From assembly GCA_937873495.1 (NCBI GenBank), contig CALMXZ010000012.1, positions 62,001 to 126,000 on the forward strand: a stretch of 64,000 nt of DNA, given 5' to 3'. The translations under genes and the position numbers were made by a program. The notes beneath the pieces are model-generated. The model ran no database searches, was not told the origin of the DNA, and saw only the letters and a list, made by a program, of their open reading frames with translations. Shown in pieces: positions 12,375 through 24,659 of this stretch (positions are counted from its first letter, which is position 1; every line of letters starts with the position of its first letter). This DNA is from an uncultured Trueperaceae bacterium. GTDB taxonomy: Bacteria > Deinococcota > Deinococci > Deinococcales > Trueperaceae.

Positions 12375-13490
12375 TCAGGCGTCCTTGCCGGCGTCGCCGC
12401 TCGGCCGGCCACCGGCCCCGCCAAAGGCCTTGCCGGCGCGCGCCAGGTGCCACAGCTCCTCGAGCTTGCCGAGCAGGTAGAGCTCGCGCACGAACTCGCG
12501 GTGGGGGCGGGCGGGGAAGCCGGCCCACGTGGCGCCGGGCGGCACGTCCTTCGTGACGCCGCTGCGGCCGGCCACGCGCGCCCCGTCGCCGATGCTGACG
12601 TGATCGCTGACGGCCACGTACCCCCCGAGGATCACGCCGGAGCCGATGCTCGCGCTCCCCGCTATGCCGGTCATGCCGGCGATGAGAGTGTCCGACCCGA
12701 TCACGACGTTGTGCCCGATCTGGCAGTGGTTGTCGATCTTGGTGCGCGCGCCTACCACCGTGTCGAGGAGAGTGCCGCGATCGAGGCACGTGTTGGCGCC
12801 GATCTCGACGTCGTCACCCAGCACGACGCCTCCGAGGTGGTGCACCTTCACGGCGCCGCGTCGCGAGGCGGCGTATCCGAAGCCGTCCGCCCCGATGACG
12901 CTCCCGGCATGGACGACGACGCGCTGGCCGAGCACGGTGCCAGAGTACAAGGTCACGTTCGGGTAGAGCCGGCAGCCCGCGCCTAGCCTGACGCCTTCGC
13001 CCACCACGGCTCCGGCTTCGATCACGCAGCCCGCGCCGAGCTCGGCGCCCGCGCCTATCACGGCGCCCGCCGCGATCCGGACGCCCTCCCCGACGCTCGC
13101 GCTCTCGTGGACGCAGGCCAGCGGGTGGCTGCCGGCCGCGGGCAGGTGCTCGCGCGCGAAGCGCGCGCTCAGTACCGCGAGGGCGAGGCGCGCGTCCGGC
13201 GCCTCCACCAGGCCGACCCCGTGGTCGGCGGCCCAGCCCGTGCCGCTCGGCACGACGAGGAGCGCCGGCCTGCTCGCCGGCGGCCCCGCCGCGGCCGCCT
13301 CCTTGCTCATGACGCACGCGGCGTCGCCCAGCTCGGCGCCGGGGCGCCGCGTGGCGGAGGCGTCCACGAGGCGCGTGATGAGCGCGCCGGCGTTCCCGGT
13401 CCCGCGGCCCGCCGGGGCCTTTGTGGCGCCTGCGAGCGCGCCGAGCTCTTCGACCAGCTCGGCGTACGTGTGGCCCGTCCCCTCAACCAT
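12375..13490 (-). CDS. lpxD: UDP-3-O-(3-hydroxyacyl)glucosamine N-acyltransferase
   Basis: LpxD adds the second, N-linked 3-hydroxyacyl chain after LpxC. Residues ~1-115 form the uridine-binding domain, which is divergent. Hexapeptide repeats follow from ~125 to 310, including ADGFGYAASRRG and KIDNHCQIGHNVVIG; the His of GHNV aligns with the E. coli catalytic His239. A C-terminal helix (VRELYLLGKLEELWHLA) is the trimer-stabilising part. I chose the ATG at 13490, which overlaps the upstream gene by 8 nt. In-frame ATG at 13502 and GTG at 13517 are alternatives that would lengthen the overlap. Confidence 0.93.
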   Translation of the reverse strand: MVEGTGHTYAELVEELGALAGATKAPAGRGTGNAGALITRLVDASATRRPGAELGDAACVMSKEAAAAGPPASRPALLVVPSGTGWAADHGVGLVEAPDARLALAVLSARFAREHLPAAGSHPLACVHESASVGEGVRIAAGAVIGAGAELGAGCVIEAGAVVGEGVRLGAGCRLYPNVTLYSGTVLGQRVVVHAGSVIGADGFGYAASRRGAVKVHHLGGVVLGDDVEIGANTCLDRGTLLDTVVGARTKIDNHCQIGHNVVIGSDTLIAGMTGIAGSASIGSGVILGGYVAVSDHVSIGDGARVAGRSGVTKDVPPGATWAGFPARPHREFVRELYLLGKLEELWHLARAGKAFGGAGGRPSGDAGKDA

Positions 13491-15255
13491 CCGCGCCGCC
13501 ATCCGCGCCGGAGCCACCGGGCTCCGGCGCGCCGTCCGGCTGCGGCTGCGTCACGGTGATGGTGAGGTCCTCGTTGCCTTCTATCACGAAGGCGAACGGC
13601 GTGCGGAAGAGCCGCCTCACCTCGCCGGTCTCCGTTATCGCCTCGACTACCAGCTCGCTCGCCTGCACCTGCTGCCTGAGGGCGTCGAGGAGCTCGGCGA
13701 ACGACCGCGGCTTGTCGACCTCCTGCTCGTCGACGTCGGCGTCGCCCGTGTCGCGCGGGACGTCGCCGCCCCTGATCAGGACGGTGAGCTCGCCCTCGAC
13801 GTCGTCCGGGACGGGCACGCTGATGGTGCGCACGATGGCGTTCTGCCGGTACGGTTGCAGCCGCAGGTGGATGAGCACGTTCTCTCCGGCCACCACCCGG
13901 TCCTCCTCGGCGACGGCCTCCTCGAGGCTGGCGCTGCGCTGCCTGTCCTCGAGGCGGACCGCGAGGGATACGTGGTCGACGCCGCTCTCGCGGAACTCGT
14001 TGTCGGCCAGGATCGCGAGCGGGGTCATAGCCAAGACGGCGGCGCGGTACGCGACATCGTCGGGGGCGTTCGTTTGCTCGATGACGTTGACGCGCTCGCC
14101 GCTGCTCAAGCCGATCTCCCACGCTATCTCCGCGTAGCCCGCCGTCGTGGCGGCGAGGTGCCGGTCGAGGAGCGACAGGACGCCGGTGCCGACCAGGGTG
14201 GGGTAGAGCCGGTCGTCGGCCGGGACGGAGAACGAGTACGAGGCGGTCGGACCGACCCCGACGACGCTGAGGTCGACCTGCAGGCTGCGCGGGACGACCC
14301 CGATACGCCCGGAGACGGCCCCGGGCCGGTCCTGGTCGATGGCGCCGAGCACCCGCGTGCCGACGTTCGCCAGCTTGAACGGGACGTCGGAGGACGGCAC
14401 GATGGCAGTCACGTAAGCCGGCGTGATGGGCATGGAGACGGGGCCGATCCCAAGGAACGGGTGGCCGAACGCGATGACCTCGTTGCCTTCCACCGCCGTG
14501 ATCGTGCCGACAGCCTGCATGGCGATGTCGCCCCAGACCAGGGAGACGGCGAGCGGGGCACCCGGCTCGAGCGCGTACTCCTCGTACCCGCCCGGCGCCC
14601 CGCCGGAGCTGCCACCGGGAACGGGGAAGGCGGCGACGTCCGCCGACCTGAACAGGGGGGCGAGGAGGGTCGCGGCGCGCGCGCTCACGCCCGTCATCAG
14701 CACCGGCGTGGCGGCGCTCGTCGCGACGCCGACGCCGGGCACTTCGACGAAGGGGGGGAGGGTCCCGCCGCTCGCGCGGCGCATGACGGAGATCGGCGTG
14801 ACGAGCGCGAGGTCGTGGTCGGCGCGGGGGAACACGTAACCGATGGCGCCCAGGAGGGCGTCGCCGCTCTCCGTGGCGATGTAAACGGGGCTGCCGCTCA
14901 TGCCTGCCGCGACGCCGCCCGCCGCCTCGATGACCGGACCGCCGGCCCGCACGAGCACGAGCGGGAAGCCCGCGCCGGCGTCCCACTGGACGGCGAGGAC
15001 CTCGACAGTGAAGCGCTCGAGCCGGTTGCCCGCCCCGGCCGTGACCCCATGGCCCCTGTCGCCGACGACCACGGCCTCGACGGGCAGGTCGACGGCGGCG
15101 GAGCGCGTGGGCTGGGCGAACGCCACCGCGCAGGCGAGGAGGACGGCGCAGCACGCCGGCAGGCGCGGGAAGCCGCTAGCGCGTCGGTCGCGCGCGCCGC
15201 GCCGCTCGGCGCCTGCACTGTCGGCATGAAGCTTGGCGCTCGCGTGCGCCGCCAC
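13483..15255 (-). CDS. secreted SpoIVB-type (S55) serine peptidase domain protein
   Basis: A 590-residue exported protein. After a long basic n-region a hydrophobic segment (~31-48) ends near AFAQ, a likely signal peptidase site. Residues ~55-160 match the S55/SpoIVB peptidase fold: DRGHGVT with a candidate catalytic His (~69) and GMSGSPVY (~119-125) with the nucleophile Ser. The remaining ~430 residues are beta-rich and unassigned, ending in a proline/glycine tail. SpoIVB signals across the envelope in sporulation, but this organism shows no sporulation genes here. It starts 2 nt after mreB and overlaps lpxD, so an envelope role is likely. The GTG at 15255 is the only plausible start. Confidence 0.75.
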   Translation of the reverse strand: MAAHASAKLHADSAGAERRGARDRRASGFPRLPACCAVLLACAVAFAQPTRSAAVDLPVEAVVVGDRGHGVTAGAGNRLERFTVEVLAVQWDAGAGFPLVLVRAGGPVIEAAGGVAAGMSGSPVYIATESGDALLGAIGYVFPRADHDLALVTPISVMRRASGGTLPPFVEVPGVGVATSAATPVLMTGVSARAATLLAPLFRSADVAAFPVPGGSSGGAPGGYEEYALEPGAPLAVSLVWGDIAMQAVGTITAVEGNEVIAFGHPFLGIGPVSMPITPAYVTAIVPSSDVPFKLANVGTRVLGAIDQDRPGAVSGRIGVVPRSLQVDLSVVGVGPTASYSFSVPADDRLYPTLVGTGVLSLLDRHLAATTAGYAEIAWEIGLSSGERVNVIEQTNAPDDVAYRAAVLAMTPLAILADNEFRESGVDHVSLAVRLEDRQRSASLEEAVAEEDRVVAGENVLIHLRLQPYRQNAIVRTISVPVPDDVEGELTVLIRGGDVPRDTGDADVDEQEVDKPRSFAELLDALRQQVQASELVVEAITETGEVRRLFRTPFAFVIEGNEDLTITVTQPQPDGAPEPGGSGADGGADG

Positions 15256-15257
15256 GT

Positions 15258-16295
15258 TCAGCGCCTCAGGAAGTTGTCTGAGATGAGCGCGTCCTGCAGC
15301 ACGTGGATCATGTCGAGCGCCTGGCCGGTGCCGAGCGCCACCGACTCCGTGGCGTTCTCCGCCACCATGACCGGGATGCCGGTCGTCTGGCGCAGCAGCT
15401 CGTCGAAGTTGCGCAGGAGCGCCCCACCGCCCGTCATGATGATGCCGCGGTCGATCACGTCGCTCACGAGCTCAGGCGGCGCCTGCTCGAGAACGCGCCG
15501 CACGCCGTCCGCGATCTTGGCGATCGGCTCCTTCAGCGCCTCGACGACGTCCTTGGTGGTAACGCTGATGCTCTTGGGCAGGCCGTTGATGAGGTCGCGT
15601 CCGCGCACCTCGAGGCTCCGGTCGTCGCCCGGGCCTCGCAGCATGGCCGCCCCGACCTCCATCTTCACGGCCTCGGCCGTGCGATCGCCGATGAGCAGGT
15701 TCTCCTTGTGGCGGATGTGCCTGATGATCGACTCGTCGAACTCGTTGCCCGCGATGCGCAGGCTCTCCGAGACGACGATGCCGCCGAGGGAGATGATGGC
15801 GATGTCCGTCGTGCCGCCCCCGACGTCGACGATCATCGAGCCGGTCGGCTCGGCGATGTTGACGCCGGCGCCGATGGCGGCGGCCAGCGGCTCCTCGATC
15901 AGGAACGCCTTGCGGGCGCCGACTTCGCGCGTGGCCTGCAGCACGGCGCGGCGCTCGACCTCCGTGACGCCGGAGGGCACGCACACCATGATCTGCGGCT
16001 TGAAGAGCCGGCTCGGGCCCGTGAGGACCTTGCGCACGAACGCCTGGAGCATCTTCTCGGTCAGGTCGTAGTCGGCGATGACGCCGTCGCGCATCGGGCG
16101 GACCGCCACGATGTTGCCGGGCGTCCTGCCGAGCATCCGGTAGGCTTCCTCCCCGACGGCCTTCACTTCACCGGTGTCGCGGACCATCGCGATGACGGAC
16201 GGTTCGCGCAACATGATGCCTTGGCCCTTCACATAGATGAGGACGGTCGCCGTGCCGAGGTCGACCCCCATCTCTTTTCCGAGTCTGAAGAACAT
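15258..16295 (-). CDS. mreB: rod shape-determining actin homologue MreB
   Basis: MreB is the bacterial actin that guides lateral cell-wall synthesis. The 345 residues include the amphipathic N-terminal MFFRLGKEMGVDLGTA, the phosphate-1 motif DLGTATVLIY, phosphate-2 IVDVGGGTTDIAII (~157-170) and the adenosine motif MTGGGALLRN. The ATG at 16295 is preceded by GGAGCGGAAGTGAGT, a usable Shine-Dalgarno, which rejects an upstream in-frame start at 16349. It heads the long lipid A cluster, linking shape and outer-membrane synthesis. MreC/MreD are not next to it. Confidence 0.96.
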   Translation of the reverse strand: MFFRLGKEMGVDLGTATVLIYVKGQGIMLREPSVIAMVRDTGEVKAVGEEAYRMLGRTPGNIVAVRPMRDGVIADYDLTEKMLQAFVRKVLTGPSRLFKPQIMVCVPSGVTEVERRAVLQATREVGARKAFLIEEPLAAAIGAGVNIAEPTGSMIVDVGGGTTDIAIISLGGIVVSESLRIAGNEFDESIIRHIRHKENLLIGDRTAEAVKMEVGAAMLRGPGDDRSLEVRGRDLINGLPKSISVTTKDVVEALKEPIAKIADGVRRVLEQAPPELVSDVIDRGIIMTGGGALLRNFDELLRQTTGIPVMVAENATESVALGTGQALDMIHVLQDALISDNFLRR

Positions 16296-16418
16296 ACTCA
16301 CTTCCGCTCCACGGCGCTTCCGACTACCACGACGGCCAACGGGCCTCACCGCCTCTGGGGCAAGAAGGCCCTTCGCTGCGGTGCGGTCCGCGAGGACGCC
16401 GTAGTCTCGCGGTGAGGC

Positions 16419-16427: not shown

Positions 16428-17060
16428 CTACAGGTAATGAGGTTTGGGCGGTTCGCCCGCACCGGCCGCGGCCCCCGCCGCGCCCCATGCCAACGCGCTC
16501 GCCTCCGGCACCACGAGCGTCTCGGTGCCATGCGCCACGGCGACGGTCCTGTACTCGAGGCACGGCACGCCGGGGTACTCGGCGGTGAGCTCGGAACGCC
16601 CGAGCTTGCGAGGCGCCTCCAGCTCCACGTAGCTCACAGCCCACGGCCGCGGGTCGCGGCGTTCGAGGAGCTGAGCGTAGACGTTGCCGCGGCGCGCGTC
16701 GCTCGCCGCGACGACGCGCGCGCCGGGGCCCACCAACGTGGCGGGCAGCGCGGCGAGGCTCGACACCCCGACGCAGCCGACCCCCCAGGCCCGGGCGACG
16801 CCGAGGGCGGCCGCCACGCCGACGCGTACGCCCGTGTAGGAGCCGGGCCCGACCCCGACGCCGACGGCGGCGAAGTCGCGCGCCGCGGCGCCGCAGGCGC
16901 CGAGCAGGGCCTCCAGCGCCTCAGCGATGAGCGCCGCGTGGGCCCGCCCGACGTCGTCCGATCTGGCCGCCAGCGTGCCGCTTCGCGGGTCGACGACGGC
17001 TACGGCCAGGTGCGGCGTCGAGCAGTCGAGCCCGAGCAGGAGGCTGCCGCCCGCGCTCAC
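16428..17060 (-). CDS. tsaB: tRNA threonylcarbamoyladenosine biosynthesis protein TsaB
   Basis: TsaB is the inactive ASKHA partner that, with TsaD and TsaE, makes the t6A modification of ANN-decoding tRNAs. The 210 residues have the N-terminal LLGLDCSTPHLAVAVVD and the family hallmark GVGPGSYTGVRVGVAAALGVARA (in part VGVGPGSYTGVRVG). The GTG start at 17060 overlaps the tsaE stop by 4 nt. TsaD and TsaC are not in the window. The C-terminus is short and Ala/Gly-rich. Confidence 0.95.
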   Translation of the reverse strand: MSAGGSLLLGLDCSTPHLAVAVVDPRSGTLAARSDDVGRAHAALIAEALEALLGACGAAARDFAAVGVGVGPGSYTGVRVGVAAALGVARAWGVGCVGVSSLAALPATLVGPGARVVAASDARRGNVYAQLLERRDPRPWAVSYVELEAPRKLGRSELTAEYPGVPCLEYRTVAVAHGTETLVVPEASALAWGAAGAAAGAGEPPKPHYL

Positions 17061-17584
17061 GGTCCGGCGCGCTCCCCCGGTGTGCCGGTCGGCTCGCCGC
17101 CGCTGCCGCCCGTGTGCCGCGTGGGGCCGTGCGTGCGCAACCAGCGCGCTTGGCGCAGCGGTGCGGCTCCGCCCGGCGCGGCGGGCGCGAAAGAGAAGGC
17201 GAGCTGCCACGCCTCGGGGTAGGCCTCCAGCAGCCCCTCGCCCCACTCGACGACGACGAGGCGCGCCCGCCAGCCGTAGTCGTCGAGCATGGCGCCCGCC
17301 AGCCCCGCGCCGCCGCCCAGCCGGTAGGCGTCCAGGTGGACGAGGGTGCCTTCCGGCGACGGGTACTCGTGTACCAACGTGTAGGTCGGGCTCGTGACGG
17401 GCGCCTCGACGCCGAGGCGCGAGGCGAGCGCCTGGGTGAACGTCGTCTTGCCGGAGCCGAGCGGCCCGGAGAGCACCAGTAGCGCGCCGGGTGGCAGCGC
17501 CGCGAGCGCCTCGCCGGCCAGGCGCTCCGTGTCAGCCAGCGTCGTCAGGGGGATGGCCCGTTCCGCCTCCGCCCCGACGTTCAC
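17057..17584 (-). CDS. tsaE: tRNA threonylcarbamoyladenosine biosynthesis ATPase TsaE
   Basis: TsaE is the P-loop ATPase that resets the TsaBD complex. The 175 residues contain Walker A SGPLGSGKTTF (~39-49), SPTYTLVHEY, the HLDAYRL block and the VVVEWGEGL Walker B-like region, all family hallmarks. The ~35 C-terminal residues after the conserved core are Gly/Pro/Thr-rich. The GTG start overlaps the stop of the long coiled-coil gene (GTGA), so tsaE translation is coupled to an unrelated gene upstream. Confidence 0.95.
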   Translation of the reverse strand: MNVGAEAERAIPLTTLADTERLAGEALAALPPGALLVLSGPLGSGKTTFTQALASRLGVEAPVTSPTYTLVHEYPSPEGTLVHLDAYRLGGGAGLAGAMLDDYGWRARLVVVEWGEGLLEAYPEAWQLAFSFAPAAPGGAAPLRQARWLRTHGPTRHTGGSGGEPTGTPGERAGP

Positions 17585-20478
17585 GGCGCGGCTTGATCGG
17601 GCAGGGGCCAGCCGCGGGCGTCGCGCCGCACCCGGCGCAGCAGGGCGCCGGCGTGATCGGCGTCGAACGTGCGCAGCAGGATCCGCTCGCCGTTCGCCAG
17701 GAGGACCAGGAGGAGGACCTCGTCGCCGTCGTGCGCTTGCAGCGCGTCGACGCCTGGCAGCTCCGCGACGGCCGTAAGCGCCACGCGCGCCATGCCGGCC
17801 GCAGGCGACCTCTCGTCGTCGCGCCCACCGTGGGCCAGGACGCTCCCGTCGGCCGCCAGCCAGGTGGCGCTCGTCACGCGCTCGTCGGCGACGTAGTCGG
17901 CCAGCGCCAGGCCGCGTTCGAACGTCGGCTCGGCGGCCGGCCGCGACCCCGTCGCTTTCAGGAAGCCGAGGACGTCGTCGAGCAGGCCGCCGCTTACGAC
18001 CCGGTCCGCGACGAGTCGGGTCGCCTCGTACTCGTCCTTGAGATCGACGAGCATGCGCTCGGCCTGGGAGAGCGCGCTGTCGAGCTGGAGCTGCAGCCCG
18101 CGGGAGAGGCGGGGGAGCGCCTCGCGCTGGGAGTCGAGATGCCCGAGGATCCGGCGCACCGTCGTCACGCCGTCGCTGTTCAGCTTCGAGACGGGTTCGA
18201 GCGCGGCGAGGGCGGCGTCGAGTCGAGCCGGCATGCCGGCGAGGGTCTCCTCGGCGGCGCGCTCGAGCTCCGAGAGCCGCTCGGCCGCCCGCCTGAGCGT
18301 GTGAGGCGCCTCCCCGGCCTCGAGGTCGCGGCGCGCCTCGGCCAGCAGGTCCTTCAGCTCGGCGCCGGCGCCGGAGTTCTCGAACGGCGAGGCGGCCTGC
18401 GAGAGGCGCTTGAGCTCGTCGACCTGCTCCTGGCGCTGCGCCTCGCGTTCGTAGCGCAGTGCGGCGTGGAGCTGCGCCAGGTCGGGATAGCGGTCGAGCT
18501 CGAGGCCGAGGAGCGCCTTCTGGATGTGCTCCATGAGCGGGTGGTTGCCGAGTTCGGTCGCCTCCTCGGCCAGACGCATCAGGCGCCCACGGAGGCTGCC
18601 GCTCAGCTCTTCGCGGAGCGCCTCGATCTCCGTGCCGAGCGACTCGATGTCGGAGTCGTCGAGGGACGCGGCGGCCTTGCGCTCGTCGAGCAGCAGTCCG
18701 GCGACGGCCGCCGCGCTCTCCTGCTCGTCGATCAGGCGCGTGACCTCGCTGCGTAGCGCGGCGGCGCGGTCGCCGAGGGTCGCCGTTACCGGCAGGCGCT
18801 CCAGCTTGGCCCTGAGGGCGTTCAGCCGCGCCAGGCGCCGCTCGCTCGCCTCGGTGGCGCGCTCGGCGAGGCTCCGCTCCAACGCCTCCTCGGCCTCGCG
18901 CGCTGCCGAGACGAGGTCGTGGGCGACGGCGCTCTGCTCCTGCGCCAGCCGCAGCTGGTCGAACTCGGAGCGCAGGCGTTCGACGTGCTCGCGCACCCCT
19001 TCGTCGTCCTGGCGGTTGGTCAGCGTGGCTTCCAGCCTGATGAGCAGCTGGGCCTGCGCCTCGAGGCTCTGCTCGCGCGCCTCGTCCTCGCGGTCCATGA
19101 CCTCGGCCTGCTCGGCGGCGAGCTGGTGCAGACGCCTGACGTGTTCGACGTCCGTGTAGCTCGGCAGGCCGGACTCGAGGATCCCGAGCGTGACGCGCAC
19201 GGCCTGCCCGAGCTCCGTGGTGTCGACCTCGGGCCGCAGGCCGCCGATGGCGAGGATGAGCTCGGTGAACTCCTCCTTGAGGTCCGTGCGCAGCGCGGCC
19301 CCTGTCGCTTCGAGGTCCTGCCTGAACCCCGCGAGCTCGCCGGCCACCGATCGCTCGGCTTCCAGCTCCCCCCGCAGCTCCGCGAGCCGCTTGCCGAGCT
19401 CGGGGTAGTACTCGATGACCGCGCCGAACTCGCCCTCCATGGCCCTGAGGTCGTGCCGTTCGGCGGCGATGTCGAGGAGCCGCATGCGGTCCTCGAACTC
19501 GGCGTCCCGGAGTGACGGAGGGACGACGTCGAACGTCCGTTCCGGCTTCAGCACGCCGACGAGCGCCGCGGCGGCCGCGGCAAGGTCAACTTCGGTGTCC
19601 TCTGAGGGTGGCGCGGTGTGCGCGGTGTGTGCCGGCGCTTGGCGGTCTGTCGTCGCCTCGGGGGTCACGGTCGGGGCTATGGGTTCGGCCCCGGCCGCGG
19701 CCTCTGACCGCCCGGTGCCATGGAGCGCCTCACCCTGCTGCGCCTCACTCTGCTGCGCCTCACTCCGCTGCGCCTCACTCCGCTGCGCGGCCTCGGCCTC
19801 GGCGGCGCGTCTCAGTTCGCGCGCCTGACGGTGAGCGCGCTCGAGCTCGGCCGGCGCCAACTGGCGCTGACCTTGCGCGGCTTGCAACTGGTTGACGAGG
19901 GTCTCGAGACGCCGCACGCGCGGACCGCCGACTTCCCTGACGGCCTCGAGCGTCTCGGCGAGCTCGCCAAGGTCTCGGGCTTGCAGGACGAGCTGGTCCT
20001 CGAGCTTCTGCTTGACGACGACGAGCTGCTCCTCGGCCTCCTGCAAGACGGCGAGCGCGGAGCGCCCGGCGCCGTACTCGCTGTCGACGAGTTGCACTTG
20101 CGCCCGCAGCTTCTGGACCTCAGGCCACTCGAAGTAGAGGTTGAACGGCCGCAGCTCCGCCTGGACGGCGGTGAGCCGCTGGCCCACGGCCTCGAGGTTC
20201 GTCTCCGAGACGCTTCCTGCCCCGGTCGCGCCGGTGGAGGAGCCCGTCAGGCGCTCGAGGATGCCGGCGACGGTCTCCTTGGCCTGCGTCACGGGCATCA
20301 TGACCTGGAGCTGCCTGAAGACCTGCGCCTTCATGACCTTCTCGATGTCGGCGAGGTCGGCGGTCTCGGGGGCGCGTCCGAGCTGACGGAGGCCGTCCTT
20401 GAGCGCGCGGGAGACGATCCTCGGCGAGAGCACCGACTCTAGTTCCATGACGGCGGCCTGGTAGACGGAAGTGGTCAT
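17581..20478 (-). CDS. 965-residue coiled-coil protein with N-terminal helical domain and C-terminal roadblock-like domain
   Basis: A large cytosolic protein with no signal peptide. Residues ~1-75 form a helical domain (VLSPRIVSRALKDGLRQLG) resembling the N-terminus of the 22459-23325 product. Residues ~90-225 are coiled coil; ~225-290 is a Gln/Ser/Glu/Ala then Thr/Pro linker with five-residue repeats; ~310-830 is a long, Glu/Arg/Leu-rich coiled coil. The last ~110 residues (VTSATWLAADGSVLAHGG to the end) follow the helix-strand-strand-helix-strands-helix order of roadblock/LC7 domains. I do not recognise a named family. It overlaps tsaE. The ATG at 20478 is chosen over GTG at 20487; neither has a clear ribosome site. 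Confidence 0.7.
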   Translation of the reverse strand: MTTSVYQAAVMELESVLSPRIVSRALKDGLRQLGRAPETADLADIEKVMKAQVFRQLQVMMPVTQAKETVAGILERLTGSSTGATGAGSVSETNLEAVGQRLTAVQAELRPFNLYFEWPEVQKLRAQVQLVDSEYGAGRSALAVLQEAEEQLVVVKQKLEDQLVLQARDLGELAETLEAVREVGGPRVRRLETLVNQLQAAQGQRQLAPAELERAHRQARELRRAAEAEAAQRSEAQRSEAQQSEAQQGEALHGTGRSEAAAGAEPIAPTVTPEATTDRQAPAHTAHTAPPSEDTEVDLAAAAAALVGVLKPERTFDVVPPSLRDAEFEDRMRLLDIAAERHDLRAMEGEFGAVIEYYPELGKRLAELRGELEAERSVAGELAGFRQDLEATGAALRTDLKEEFTELILAIGGLRPEVDTTELGQAVRVTLGILESGLPSYTDVEHVRRLHQLAAEQAEVMDREDEAREQSLEAQAQLLIRLEATLTNRQDDEGVREHVERLRSEFDQLRLAQEQSAVAHDLVSAAREAEEALERSLAERATEASERRLARLNALRAKLERLPVTATLGDRAAALRSEVTRLIDEQESAAAVAGLLLDERKAAASLDDSDIESLGTEIEALREELSGSLRGRLMRLAEEATELGNHPLMEHIQKALLGLELDRYPDLAQLHAALRYEREAQRQEQVDELKRLSQAASPFENSGAGAELKDLLAEARRDLEAGEAPHTLRRAAERLSELERAAEETLAGMPARLDAALAALEPVSKLNSDGVTTVRRILGHLDSQREALPRLSRGLQLQLDSALSQAERMLVDLKDEYEATRLVADRVVSGGLLDDVLGFLKATGSRPAAEPTFERGLALADYVADERVTSATWLAADGSVLAHGGRDDERSPAAGMARVALTAVAELPGVDALQAHDGDEVLLLVLLANGERILLRTFDADHAGALLRRVRRDARGWPLPDQAAP
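19726..19785 (-). repeat. four tandem 15-nt units inside the coiled-coil gene
   Basis: Four near-identical 15-mers (plus-strand form CGCCTCACTCCGCTG with one or two changes) encode repeats of the type SEAQR/SEAQQ. The unit is a multiple of three, so copy changes keep the frame. They lie in the linker between two coiled-coil regions. Confidence 0.85.
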
Positions 20479-20533
20479 GACGGTCACGTGGCGCCGCTAC
20501 CGCTCGCCCGCTCACCGCGGCTGCCGTGCGGCA

Positions 20534-22462
20534 TCAGAACTCCTCGTCCCAGTCGATGGTGGTGTTGCCGGTGCTGCTCTTCTTCGTCACCGCGGCGGCC
20601 GGCGCGGGCGCGACGCTCTTCTTCTGGCCGCCGAGGAGCCCGAACTGCACGCATATGCCGCGCAGGCCGACTATCGCGAGCGCGAGCGCGAGAAGGACGA
20701 GCACGGCCCATACGGCCTGGCCCGTCAGGCCGCCGAACATCGACCAGCGGCCGAGGTCGGGGAGCCAAGTCATGTCGACGTAGCGGGAGAGGAGGTCGGC
20801 CAACGCGACGATCCCCTGGTAGAAGGTCGGCACCAGGAGGAGGAACAGCGCCCAGCCGACGAGCCGCCAGTTGCGGTTGCTGCCGCCGAACGCCATCTTC
20901 AGGAGCACGAGCGGGACGATGGCGAGGAGCGCGAGGACGATGTACACGATGGCGCGAGGCAAGCCGGACCAGAAGGTGGCGACCGTCGTCTCGACGGCGT
21001 CGGCTACGCCGACGGCCTTGCCGGCGAACGCGTCCCTGAGGATGCCGGTGCGGGTGCCGACTAGCGCCGCGTCCGTGGTGGACAACCGGGCCGTAGCGGC
21101 GAGCGAGGTGAGGAGGTCGTCCGTGCCTTGTGCCACGTCCGGGGCGATCTGCTGGAGGCTCGGCGCCAGGACGGCGCCGTAGGTCGAGGCGATGCCGGCC
21201 AGGGCCGCGTGGGCTTCCGCCTGCTCCCCGCGGCGGACGCCGGCGAGCAAGCGACCGGCGCCGGCGTCTAGGTCGGTGAAGACGGCGCCAAGGTCGGCGA
21301 AGCCTGCGTCGACGACACGCTCGGCCTCGCGGCCGGCCAGCGCCCGTGGGACGCCGGCCCTGACGAGGTCGAGGCTCACCGCGTCGACGTGCGTCCGGTG
21401 CTCCTCGGCTGCGATCTCGGCCAGGCGGGCTGCGACGGCTTGCTCGAAGGCCGGTCCGGCGAGCGCCTCGTCGGCCTGCCCCTCCACCGGCTGCGTGGCG
21501 GTCTCGGTGGTCTCGGCGGTCGCCGCCGGCTCGGTGGCCGCCGGCTCGGTGGCCGCCGGCTCGGCGGTCGCCTCAGGCTGGGCGCCGCCGCCCACCTCGG
21601 GCAGCACCTCCGGGGCGAGGAGGGCGGCCGGCTCCTGCGCCGTTGCCTCACCCGTTGCCTGGGCGGCGGGCTGGCCGGCGGCTCCGGCGTCGGTGGCGGC
21701 ATTGCGGGCGGCGGCGGCCAGGCGCGTGAGGGCGACGGCGGCGCGGTCGATGGCGGCGTCGAGCTCGGCGCGGTCGCCGGTCACGAGCGCTTGGGCGGCG
21801 CCGACCAGGTCGCGGTTCAGTGTGGCGTCGATCCGTGGCGAGTCCTGCACGAGCAGCGAATCGCCGTAGGCCTTGGCGAGGCTGACGTACGCACCGTCGC
21901 GGTCGTCGTCGACGAGCTGCGCGGCCACCTTCAGCTCGGCGGCAACGGCGTCGGCGGCGCCCGCTTCGAAGGCGAGCCGCAGGGCGGCGGAGGAGCCGGC
22001 GTTCCCGATCTCGGAGACGGCGTCGGCGCCGAACTCGAGGCTCTTGGCCAGGTGTTCGAGACGGCCGCGCGCGAGCGCGAGATCGCCGCCGCCGGCGCTC
22101 GAGAACGCCGAGTCGAGGACGAGACGGCTGAAGCCGCCGGCCAGCACGGCGGTTTGGACGGCCATGTCGGTGCGGCTCTGGTTCTCGACGGCCACGCGCG
22201 TGCGTTCGAACGTGCGCTCCATGGCCTGCACGAGGTTCGAGCTGGTGGCGTCGCGTGACAGGGTCAGGAGGGCGTTGAGAGCGCGTTCGAGCTCGTCGCG
22301 CGCTTGGAGGCCGTCGCCCGGCACCGACGCGGTGGCTACTTGCAGGTTCTCGAGGGCAAGATCGTAGCGCTGGAGGAGGGAGTCCTCCTGCGCGAACGCG
22401 GCTCCCGACCAGAGCGCCACGGCCAGCACCGCGGTGGCGAGAGAGAGTTGACGGCGGATCAT
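20534..22462 (-). CDS. signal-peptide protein with large extracytoplasmic helical region and three C-terminal membrane helices
   Basis: A 642-residue envelope protein of unknown family. Residues 1-24 are a clear signal peptide ending AAFAQ. Residues ~25-265 and ~345-500 are helical and Ala-rich, separated by a Thr/Glu/Pro/Ala linker with ATEPA repeats. Three membrane helices follow (near 515-540, 550-575 and 590-615), then a tail that should face the cytosol and ends NTTIDWDEEF. The ATG at 22462 overlaps the stop of the upstream roadblock gene (ATGA). Its cytosolic acidic tail could dock the two cytosolic partners encoded on either side, but that is inference. Confidence 0.7.
   Translation of the reverse strand: MIRRQLSLATAVLAVALWSGAAFAQEDSLLQRYDLALENLQVATASVPGDGLQARDELERALNALLTLSRDATSSNLVQAMERTFERTRVAVENQSRTDMAVQTAVLAGGFSRLVLDSAFSSAGGGDLALARGRLEHLAKSLEFGADAVSEIGNAGSSAALRLAFEAGAADAVAAELKVAAQLVDDDRDGAYVSLAKAYGDSLLVQDSPRIDATLNRDLVGAAQALVTGDRAELDAAIDRAAVALTRLAAAARNAATDAGAAGQPAAQATGEATAQEPAALLAPEVLPEVGGGAQPEATAEPAATEPAATEPAATAETTETATQPVEGQADEALAGPAFEQAVAARLAEIAAEEHRTHVDAVSLDLVRAGVPRALAGREAERVVDAGFADLGAVFTDLDAGAGRLLAGVRRGEQAEAHAALAGIASTYGAVLAPSLQQIAPDVAQGTDDLLTSLAATARLSTTDAALVGTRTGILRDAFAGKAVGVADAVETTVATFWSGLPRAIVYIVLALLAIVPLVLLKMAFGGSNRNWRLVGWALFLLLVPTFYQGIVALADLLSRYVDMTWLPDLGRWSMFGGLTGQAVWAVLVLLALALAIVGLRGICVQFGLLGGQKKSVAPAPAAAVTKKSSTGNTTIDWDEEF
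21522..21566 (-). repeat. three tandem 15-nt units in the membrane protein linker
   Basis: Three copies of GCCGCCGGCTCGGTG (third with one change) encode the ATEPA/ATEPA linker repeats. The period of 15 nt equals that in the neighbouring coiled-coil gene. Confidence 0.85.
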
Positions 22463-23325
22463 GCAGCCTCCTCGAGAGCGGCGCGCGCGTTCAGGACGGC
22501 ACCGATGTTGACGGTTCCTTGCGTGACGACGACCAAGCTGTCCTCACCGAACGGGAACAGGAAGAGCACCCCGGTAGGGTGCTCCACCGACAAGGCGCGC
22601 AGGTCGCTAGAGCGCGCCAGAAGATGACGAGAAGAAAGTACCAGACCAGGGAGACGTTCCGGGTCGACGCCTTCCCCCCGCTGGAGGAGGATGGCGTTGC
22701 GCCTGAGCACCACGACCTGCCGCACCGTCTCGATGTCGCCGAAGAGCTTGAGCACCTTGTCGAGCGCCGGCTCGGTGAGGCGGGCGACCTTGCGCCGCGG
22801 CGCCGGTTCCTGAGCCCGCGTCGTCCGGCGGCGCTTCCGGAGCACGACGGGCGCGCGGCCGGCCAGGCGGCCGTCCGCAGCGTCCGGAACGAACGGGGTG
22901 CTCGGCAAGGTGGCGAGCGGACCGGACTGGGCGGTGGCGGGCGCGGGCGGCGTCGGCCCAGGGTCGGTGGAGAGTTCTACGGCGGCCAGCCGCTCGGACG
23001 TCAGGAAGACGTAGGCGCGCTCGGCCTCGGCCTCGGCGATCAGAGCCTCGGCCACCGGCGTGCGGTGCCTGGGTAGCGGCGGCGCCGAGGCGGCCAACTC
23101 GTCCGCCAAGAGCTTCAGATGGTAGGTGAGGGCGGCGCGCGGGAACGTGCCGGCGAGGCCCTTGCGCACGTCGCCTGCCAGCAGGTGCCGCATGGTCGAG
23201 ACGGTCACGGAGTCGCTGTCGTAGCCGGCGGAGACGATGGCTTGGTCGAGGACCCCGGCTGCGACCCGCGGCGAGACGATGGCGGAGAGCGCCGTGTGCG
23301 TCTTGATGTAGACATCGTTCGGCAT
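22459..23325 (-). CDS. roadblock/LC7-like domain protein, first gene of a three-gene set
   Basis: A 288-residue protein. Residues ~1-85 are a helical domain with VSPRVAAGVLDQAIVSAG, similar in pattern to the N-terminus of the 965-residue partner. Residues ~110-180 are a Pro/Ala then Arg/Lys-rich linker. Residues ~185-288 (TVRQVVVLRRNAILLQRGEG ... VVVTQGTVNIGAVLNARAALEE) follow the roadblock/LC7 fold pattern. Such domains act as homodimer platforms for small GTPases such as MglA, but no GTPase is encoded here. The ATG at 23325 is well supported by GAAGGAGGG just upstream, which rejects the longer open frame. It overlaps the membrane-protein gene by 4 nt. Confidence 0.7.
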   Translation of the reverse strand: MPNDVYIKTHTALSAIVSPRVAAGVLDQAIVSAGYDSDSVTVSTMRHLLAGDVRKGLAGTFPRAALTYHLKLLADELAASAPPLPRHRTPVAEALIAEAEAERAYVFLTSERLAAVELSTDPGPTPPAPATAQSGPLATLPSTPFVPDAADGRLAGRAPVVLRKRRRTTRAQEPAPRRKVARLTEPALDKVLKLFGDIETVRQVVVLRRNAILLQRGEGVDPERLPGLVLSSRHLLARSSDLRALSVEHPTGVLFLFPFGEDSLVVVTQGTVNIGAVLNARAALEEAA

Positions 23326-23549: not shown

Positions 23550-24593
23550 TCAGGCTCTGCCGGGGCGTTCCAAGGCGCGGGCCAGGCCATGCGCTACCGA
23601 GAGCGTCTCCGGGTAACGCATCCGTGCCGGCCCGACGATGGCCAGGTGACCGCTCGAGCGCCCGAGCGAGAACGAGGCCCCCACGCGCGCCACGCGCTCG
23701 TCGAGGTCGACGAAGAGCTCGCCATCGCCGCGACCATGATCGCCCTGCTCCTTGCCCGCCGCTGCGGCACCCGGCGTCCGTACCCTCTGGGGAGCACCGT
23801 CGCCGACGCCCCCGCCAGCACCGTGGCGCGCCGCACCCCTCGGCTCCGACTCCAGCGACTCGAGGGCCAGGCGCATGAAGCTCGGATCCGCGCCTTCCGG
23901 TTCGTCCAACAGGTGTCCGAACCCTTCCCGGAAGACGCGCGGCGGCTGCAGGTCGTGCCAGGCGCGCGCGAGCGCGACGAGCGTGCGGCTCAGCTCGGCG
24001 TTGGCGCGGTTGGCGAGCTCGAGGAGCGCGGAGGGCACCTCGCCGACGGGTTGGGCGAGCTGCCTCAGGTTGCGCTCTGCGTCGTCGATCACATCACCGT
24101 GCGGCGCGGGGTCGACCGTGACGCCGAGCTGGCGCACCAGGCCGTTCTCCAGGACCACCACCGCGAGGAGCCGGTTCGAGGCGAGCTGCGACAGGTGGAT
24201 CTCGAGGATGTGCAGGGCGTCGTCGGCCGGCAGGCTGATGGTGACGGCGTAACCGGACAGCTCCGCCGCCAGGCGCGATGCGAGGGCGAACAGGTCGTCA
24301 CCCTCGGCACCCTTGAGGTGCTCGTCGAGCCGGCTCTGCTGCGCAGCGCGCAGAGGGCGCGGCGGCAGTAGGCCCTTGGCGTACACGCGGAAGCCGAGCG
24401 CGGTCGGTATGCGCCCCGCGGACGTGTGGGGCTGTTGGAGCAGTCCGGCGCTCTCCAGCGAGCCGAAGTCGTAGCGGACGGTGGCGGGGCTCACCTCGAG
24501 GCGCGCGGCGATGTGACCGGACGCGACGGGGTGGGCAGTGGCGATGTAAGACTCTGCCACCAGCTCGAGGACCCGTGTCCTGCGCTCCTTCAT
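23550..24593 (-). CDS. hrcA: heat-inducible transcription repressor HrcA
   Basis: HrcA represses groE/dnaK operons by binding CIRCE elements. The 347 residues begin with the winged helix (MKERRTRVLELVAESYIATA, then HPVASGHIAARLEVSPATVR in part) and GLLQQPHTSAGRIPT, which is the HrcA wing signature. A GAF-like dimer domain follows, interrupted by a Gly/Arg-rich insertion (~255-295). The C-terminus VGPARMRYPETLSVAHGLA matches the family. The ATG at 24593 fits the family start and has a TAGCAT box 8 nt upstream, so a GTG at 24611 is rejected. No CIRCE is visible near any gene in the window. Confidence 0.93.
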   Translation of the reverse strand: MKERRTRVLELVAESYIATAHPVASGHIAARLEVSPATVRYDFGSLESAGLLQQPHTSAGRIPTALGFRVYAKGLLPPRPLRAAQQSRLDEHLKGAEGDDLFALASRLAAELSGYAVTISLPADDALHILEIHLSQLASNRLLAVVVLENGLVRQLGVTVDPAPHGDVIDDAERNLRQLAQPVGEVPSALLELANRANAELSRTLVALARAWHDLQPPRVFREGFGHLLDEPEGADPSFMRLALESLESEPRGAARHGAGGGVGDGAPQRVRTPGAAAAGKEQGDHGRGDGELFVDLDERVARVGASFSLGRSSGHLAIVGPARMRYPETLSVAHGLARALERPGRA

Positions 24594-24601
24594 GACTATC
24601 G

Positions 24602-24607
24602 ATGCTA
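24602..24607 (-). promoter_or_regulatory. -10 box TAGCAT before hrcA
   Basis: TAGCAT on the minus strand ends 8 nt before the hrcA ATG, with no Shine-Dalgarno between them. This is the same leaderless layout seen before serA, plsX, trxB and others in the window. Confidence 0.5.
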
Positions 24608-24659
24608 CCACCGGGAGCGGACAGGCGCGTGTGGCGCACCCCGCCGCGTGCGGCGCGCC

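Follow-up and report, generated by a model that had tools for sequence, protein, structure and literature searches.

Gene organization of the locus

The window analyzed here, a DNA stretch of 64,000 nucleotides, carries three consecutive genes, which we designated P3, P2, and P1. All window features described below lie on the minus strand, where the gene order was hrcA, P3, P2, P1, tsaE, tsaB, and an mreB-like gene. hrcA (23550-24611) was assigned from the ORF list and a family scan, and tsaE (17057-17584) by its match to the Pfam TsaE family (E = 2.7e-29). P3 (22459-23325) encodes a predicted cytosolic protein of 288 amino acids, in which profile and Foldseek comparisons indicated an N-terminal helical domain, a disordered linker, and a C-terminal roadblock domain. 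The product of P2 (20534-22462; 642 amino acids) was predicted from its topology to be an inner-membrane protein with an extracytoplasmic region, and that of P1 (17581-20478; 965 amino acids) to consist of P3-like N- and C-terminal domains flanking a long helical rod. P3 and P2 overlapped by 4 nt, as did P1 and tsaE, and a gap of 55 nt separated P2 from P1; hence the three adjacent genes, overlapping or nearly so, had been placed and laid out correctly in an earlier note made from the window alone. That note had also described the trio as coupled to tsaE. The overlap with P1 is present in the window, but the coupling is incidental, because it has been lost in Thermaceae although the proteins persist there.

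The mreB-like gene was located at 15258-16349, downstream of tsaB, and was followed by a gene for a secreted protein (13483-15255) that appears to be a relative of S55/SpoIVB-type peptidases; the neighborhood of the latter gene was also kept at locus L056. No genes for a kinase, a GTPase, or a small conserved protein were recognized among the neighbors of the trio in the loci read.

The distribution of the three genes was examined in 111 genomes, all from Deinococcota, and P1, P2, and P3 were present in 103, 107, and 100 of them, respectively. In 36 of the 36 loci examined that have both genes, P2 came no more than about 150 nt after P3, in most cases with the 4-nt overlap, which indicates that the arrangement is not due to chance. 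Most members of the family to which the window belongs had P1 following P2, and so did several further families. However, it was unlinked from P3-P2 in the genera g30, g29, and g26, the last of which belongs to family f4 and still has P1 in front of tsaE. The genus names used in this report are our own inferences: g30 is called Thermus-like, its MglA sharing 91% identity with the T. thermophilus protein, and g29 Meiothermus-like. The expectation that the trio forms a conserved block in Deinococcota therefore held for P3-P2, whereas P1 has moved away in the Thermus-like and Meiothermus-like genomes and in one genus of f4; these exceptions aside, the genes were indeed neighbors in related genomes. 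P2 was absent from the plasmid collection searched.

Two further observations concern the surroundings of P1. In the Thermus-like genus, P1 was located between genes for an MscS-like channel and a RelA/SpoT-like protein (L087:4439-6739, L088:3490-5814, and L089:5348-7597). In one genus of f4, a stand-alone roadblock protein of 119 amino acids, followed by a globin-like gene, was encoded a few kb from P1 (L131:9408-10369 and L132:6676-7631); this protein is distinct from the mglB located beside mglA.

Domain composition of the three proteins

When scanned as single sequences, P1, P2, and P3 matched none of the Pfam and NCBIfam families, and a PDB search with the P3 sequence alone returned nothing. 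Iterated searches over related loci, on the other hand, gave three clear families. The best PDB matches of the C-terminus of P3 with its family profile were roadblock proteins (7f8m, 7.6e-5; CvnB5, 3leq, 1.4e-3), and the same two structures were the best matches for the C-terminus of P1 (3leq, 1.2e-4; 7f8m, 3.6e-4). These matches spanned the whole domain in both proteins, assigning residues 182-288 of P3 (22462-22782) and about residues 853-958 of P1 (17605-17922) to the roadblock/LC7 superfamily, and the two domains matched each other in a profile-profile comparison with a probability of 96%. The Pfam model Robl_LC7 (PF03259) was matched by 7 of 36 P3 members (best 4.6e-4); its curated cut-off was not reached, and the P1 and P3 of the window did not match it at E values up to 5. 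Since the single-protein scans and the PDB search with P3 gave nothing, the roadblock domains are considered to be detectable only from family profiles.

The structure models were built with AF2 from shallow alignments of 2-4 sequences (four for P3), with a mean pLDDT of 53-56. In the P3 model, the C-terminus showed, at low confidence, the roadblock order a-b-b-a-b-b-b-a. When this model was compared with the PDB using Foldseek, the best 28 matches were all chains of the roadblock fold (best E = 1.2e-3), among them archaeal roadblocks, CvnB5, and Ragulator subunits, and the model was thus assigned to the roadblock/LC7 fold with the same reservation. The roadblock/LC7 pattern that the earlier note had recognized at both C-termini was therefore borne out by the family profiles and, for P3, also by the model; a check of the fold of these C-termini had been set beforehand as a test of that proposal.

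An N-terminal domain of approximately 85 residues was, like the C-terminal domain of approximately 105 residues, common to P1 and P3 according to the profiles; the earlier note had not recognized this N-terminal relationship. In P3, it comprised five helices at residues 1-80 (23086-23325; AF2 pLDDT 78-91), and its counterpart in P1 (20224-20478) was found by jackhmmer domain matches and alignment. Even the two window proteins gave a gapless start-to-start match (E = 0.041). No solved relative of this domain was detected in the PDB. In P1, the domain was followed by a conserved core at about residues 105-227 (19798-20166; LYFEWPEVQKLRA), which held the majority of the columns invariant in the P1 family (W118, E120, R125, L159, Q166, R190, E211, and R214). 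The subsequent segment (18004-19797) had a mainly helix-forming composition and matched helical-bundle and apolipoprotein profiles, and was taken as a coiled-coil-like rod. Because the terminal domains are common to both proteins, P1 and P3 are, as judged from their sequences, homologous at both ends, and P1 is built like P3 but with a long helical insertion separating its two ends.

P2 begins with a predicted signal peptide (residues 1-24, 22391-22462), in which a hydrophobic stretch at residues 6-24 follows MIRRQ and ends at AFA/QE. The predicted extracytoplasmic region contains a TPR-like helical solenoid at residues 28-261 (21680-22381; AF2 helices with pLDDT up to 88), for which weak TPR matches were obtained in a few members, and, beyond a low-complexity linker, a second helical domain at residues 378-480 (21023-21331; AF2). 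No significant match was found for the fold of P2 or for that of its second extracytoplasmic domain by structure comparison, and domains of known ligand binding were not found in P2 by family profiles or fold search. Three transmembrane helices were predicted at about residues 503-526, 534-558, and 579-606 (20645-20956) from hydropathy, using both the window protein and the family average, and from the AF2 model; the hydrophobic segments extended over residues 494-529, 534-558, and 574-612, with the basic residues facing the cytosol. This agrees with the signal peptide, outside region, three membrane helices, and cytosolic tail described in the earlier note, and the predicted topology of P2 together with the cytosolic domains of P1 and P3 fits the trans-envelope layout proposed there.

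Two of the most conserved features of P2 are predicted to be cytosolic. One is the loop between the first and second membrane helices (FGGSNRNW, 20867-20890; consensus FGGxNxxW), in which F525, G526, G527, N529, and W532 were near-invariant. The other is the C-terminal tail (TTIDWDEEF, 20537-20563; consensus TxVEWDEEF), a proposed docking peptide whose WDEEF end was near-invariant throughout the phylum. Departures from the usual form of P2 were also seen. In G093, P2 (L044:7568-9594) was split over two overlapping frames by an apparent frameshift or a sequencing error. In G108 and G109 (L055:6975-8246 and L082:7038-8429), P2 was shortened and its second extracytoplasmic domain was missing; P1 was also shortened and P3 was not found, and the P2 tail and MglA were kept.

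Co-occurrence with MglA and conservation of the P2 tail

The genome containing the window has one mglB-mglA pair, on contig C2 (G000:C2:127516-128546), and the trio is on contig C12. Its MglA is orthologous to the T. thermophilus protein of known structure (E = 3e-90). In the loci examined, the trio genes never adjoined mglA or mglB. The earlier note had associated the roadblock proteins with MglA-like GTPases and remarked that no GTPase was encoded beside them; the association gained ground from the matching presence of P1 and MglA described below, but the GTPase is not missing from the genome, since mglB-mglA is encoded elsewhere.

The near-complete set comprised 85 genomes with a completeness of at least 90% and a contamination of at most 5%. 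Of these, 80 had P1 and 80 had MglA, and the same five genomes (G100, G104, G105, G106, and G110) lacked both. P1 was thus present only where MglA was present. The chance of the same five absences is 1/C(85,5) = 3e-8 when relatedness is ignored. P1 and MglA were also both absent from G107, which is 89% complete, and the remaining absences of either protein fell in genomes of 58-89% completeness. These six genomes also lacked P3 and any MglB-type roadblock match. In an RpoB tree, they appeared in two places, G100 with G110 and G104 to G107, and a single clade was rejected (p-AU 1.5e-5), so that at least two joint losses are needed. Both events occurred in one family, and both could reflect a broad loss of surface behavior.

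The pilus genes had different fates in the two groups. In G104 to G107, the pilus secretin and ComEC were kept in all four genomes and PilM in three, so that the loss of the trio there accompanied that of MglA and not that of the pilus. In G100 and G110, the secretin, PilM, and ComEC were gone too, a loss that would also be predicted by a role in pilus polarity. As for other partial sets, G109 had P1 and MglA with MglB not detected, and both G108 and G109 had MglA and P1 with P3 not found, so that P3 is no strict requirement. Because P1 and P3 were kept or lost together with MglA, a polarity switch, the two probably help these bacteria to distinguish one cell end from the other.

P2 survived without P1, P3, and MglA in G104, G106, and G107, and these were the only genomes in which the WDEEF tail was lost. 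In G104 and G106 (L056 and L057), where the loci were called in full, the tailless P2 occupied its usual place between hrcA and tsaE, and hrcA, tsaE, tsaB, and the mreB-like gene still surrounded it although P1 and P3 were gone. Conversely, the tail was kept in G108 and G109 (LDWDEDF and LNWDEDF), two genomes with P1 in which no P3 was found, and in G073, which has P1 and a diverged P3. This pattern, which reflects a single loss event, is suggestive of a tail that docks P1, probably together with P3.

The loop was diverged in G073, G104, and G106 to G109. A correspondence in which the loop tracks P3 while the tail tracks P1 was considered and rejected: the loop was degenerate in G108 and G109, where P3 was not found, and in G104, G106, and G107, but it was also degenerate in G073 despite the P3 of that genome, whose roadblock domain is recognizable though diverged.

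Possible function and comparison with known systems

In several bacteria, MglA determines which pole is which. In T. thermophilus, deletions of mglA and mglB leave pili and disturb their pole localization, as summarized in PMC12024867 with reference to Salzer 2015, and work on rheotaxis states that it is unclear how Thermus pili are biased to one pole (PMC12393216). In our proposal, the trio forms a roadblock platform that is anchored in the membrane, works in the MglA/MglB pathway, holds P1 by the P2 tail, and helps to set the site of pilus activity; we regard this proposal as evenly poised between right and wrong. P2 would reside in the inner membrane with its helical extracytoplasmic part outside, and its C-terminal WDEEF tail would hold P1, and probably P3 as well, through either the roadblock or the N-terminal domain of each. 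Like other roadblock proteins, P1 and P3 would be expected to pair, and the long helical rod of P1 would reach into the cytosol. The platform would bind or localize MglA (or MglB) at an envelope-fixed site, most likely a cell pole, and would thereby help to determine the site of type IV pilus activity. We infer physical binding, contact with MglA, a polar location, an effect on pili, and assembly of the three proteins into one complex from the domain predictions and the co-occurrence. A bolder form of the proposal is an envelope-spanning receptor-scaffold that holds two paralogous roadblocks for MglA by a C-terminal peptide throughout the phylum, is Ragulator-like in principle, and constitutes the missing pilus-polarity landmark in Thermus and its relatives; this we offer tentatively, expecting it sooner to be wrong than right.

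A rather unlikely, though serious, alternative sees in the three proteins a trans-envelope scaffold that serves the envelope or the cell shape, for instance alongside the MreB-like protein, and does not contact MglA directly; on this view, it was lost with MglA only as two lineages simplified their surface life. The nearby mreB-like gene in the window's family, the mostly extracytoplasmic nature of P2, the small number of independent losses (two), and the additional loss of the secretin, PilM, and ComEC in G100 and G110 are all consistent with such a scaffold. However, in G104 and G106, P2 is still surrounded by the mreB-like gene, tsaE, and hrcA, and yet P1, P3, the P2 tail, MglA, and MglB are gone; furthermore, no mreB-like gene was seen near the trio in the Thermus-like and Meiothermus-like loci. 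An association with tsaE and thus with t6A modification of tRNA is scarcely credible: the 4-nt overlap in the window and the adjacency of P1 and tsaE in several families are set against the location of P1 away from tsaE in Thermus- and Meiothermus-like genomes, the membrane nature of P2, and the retention of tsaE in genomes without P1 and P3.

The two helical domains of P2 on the outside could also belong to a receptor for an external stimulus, from which P1 and P3 relay to a stress or nutrient response, for example through the RelA/SpoT homologue that P1 adjoins in some Thermaceae-like genomes. We give this reading little credence, as that neighbor is limited to part of one family and P1 elsewhere lies beside tsaE or alone, and no ligand-binding domain of known type was found in P2. 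Regulation of small GTPases is a common task of roadblock domains (PMC4316618), and more Robl_LC7 matches were obtained in several genomes than one MglB would account for; accordingly, P1 and P3 might be additional MglB-like regulators of a different small GTPase, with P2 just an anchor. We consider this improbable, because P1 and P3 have two domains and have diverged from MglB, and because their loss coincides with that of MglA itself.

The literature on roadblock proteins in connection with Deinococcus, Thermus, MglA, and coiled-coil proteins gave no system of the same composition, in agreement with the earlier note. The superfamily and the GTPase pathway were already known, but no description was found in the literature searched of an architecture with three such proteins, of the N-terminal domain common to P1 and P3, or of the trans-envelope partner. 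One comparable system is the MglA/MglB module of Myxococcus xanthus and Thermus thermophilus: the trio likewise includes roadblock-fold proteins in genomes with MglA, and the presence of P1 matches that of MglA in near-complete genomes. However, MglB is a short single-domain roadblock protein encoded beside mglA. P1 and P3 have a further domain at the N-terminus, to which P1 adds a rod of about 600 residues, and neither was encoded beside mglA in the loci examined; the window proteins were also unmatched by the Pfam roadblock model. In these respects, P1 and P3 differ from the MglB family.

The MglA effectors and motility scaffolds of M. xanthus (SgmX, FrzS, AglZ, and the Glt trans-envelope complex) follow a similar plan, in which a coiled-coil or repeat protein in the cytosol and an envelope-spanning partner position a motility machine, but to our knowledge none of these proteins carries a roadblock end. 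In the curated family libraries, the trio gave no significant match to Agl/Glt proteins; the only one obtained was a non-significant, low-complexity match of P2 to GltJ (E = 0.69). The actinobacterial conservons (CvnB/CvnD) are related through CvnB5 (3leq), which is among the nearest solved relatives of the roadblocks of both P1 and P3; a conservon, however, brings together at a single locus a histidine kinase, a roadblock protein, a GTPase, and a small conserved protein, whereas the trio block encodes neither a kinase nor a GTPase.

For a tie between MglA and the envelope in Deinococcota, the trio is a concrete candidate of near-universal occurrence, and it can be tested in Thermus thermophilus, which is readily worked with in the laboratory. 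The eukaryotic Ragulator/LAMTOR complex, whose subunits were among the closest fold matches of P3, similarly consists of paired roadblocks tied to a membrane and serving small GTPases. This likeness is one of principle, with no significant sequence relation shown, a different anchor, and no Rag GTPases in the trio. If the proposal is true, the trio would represent a bacterial membrane-tethered roadblock assembly and would bear on how such platforms evolved.
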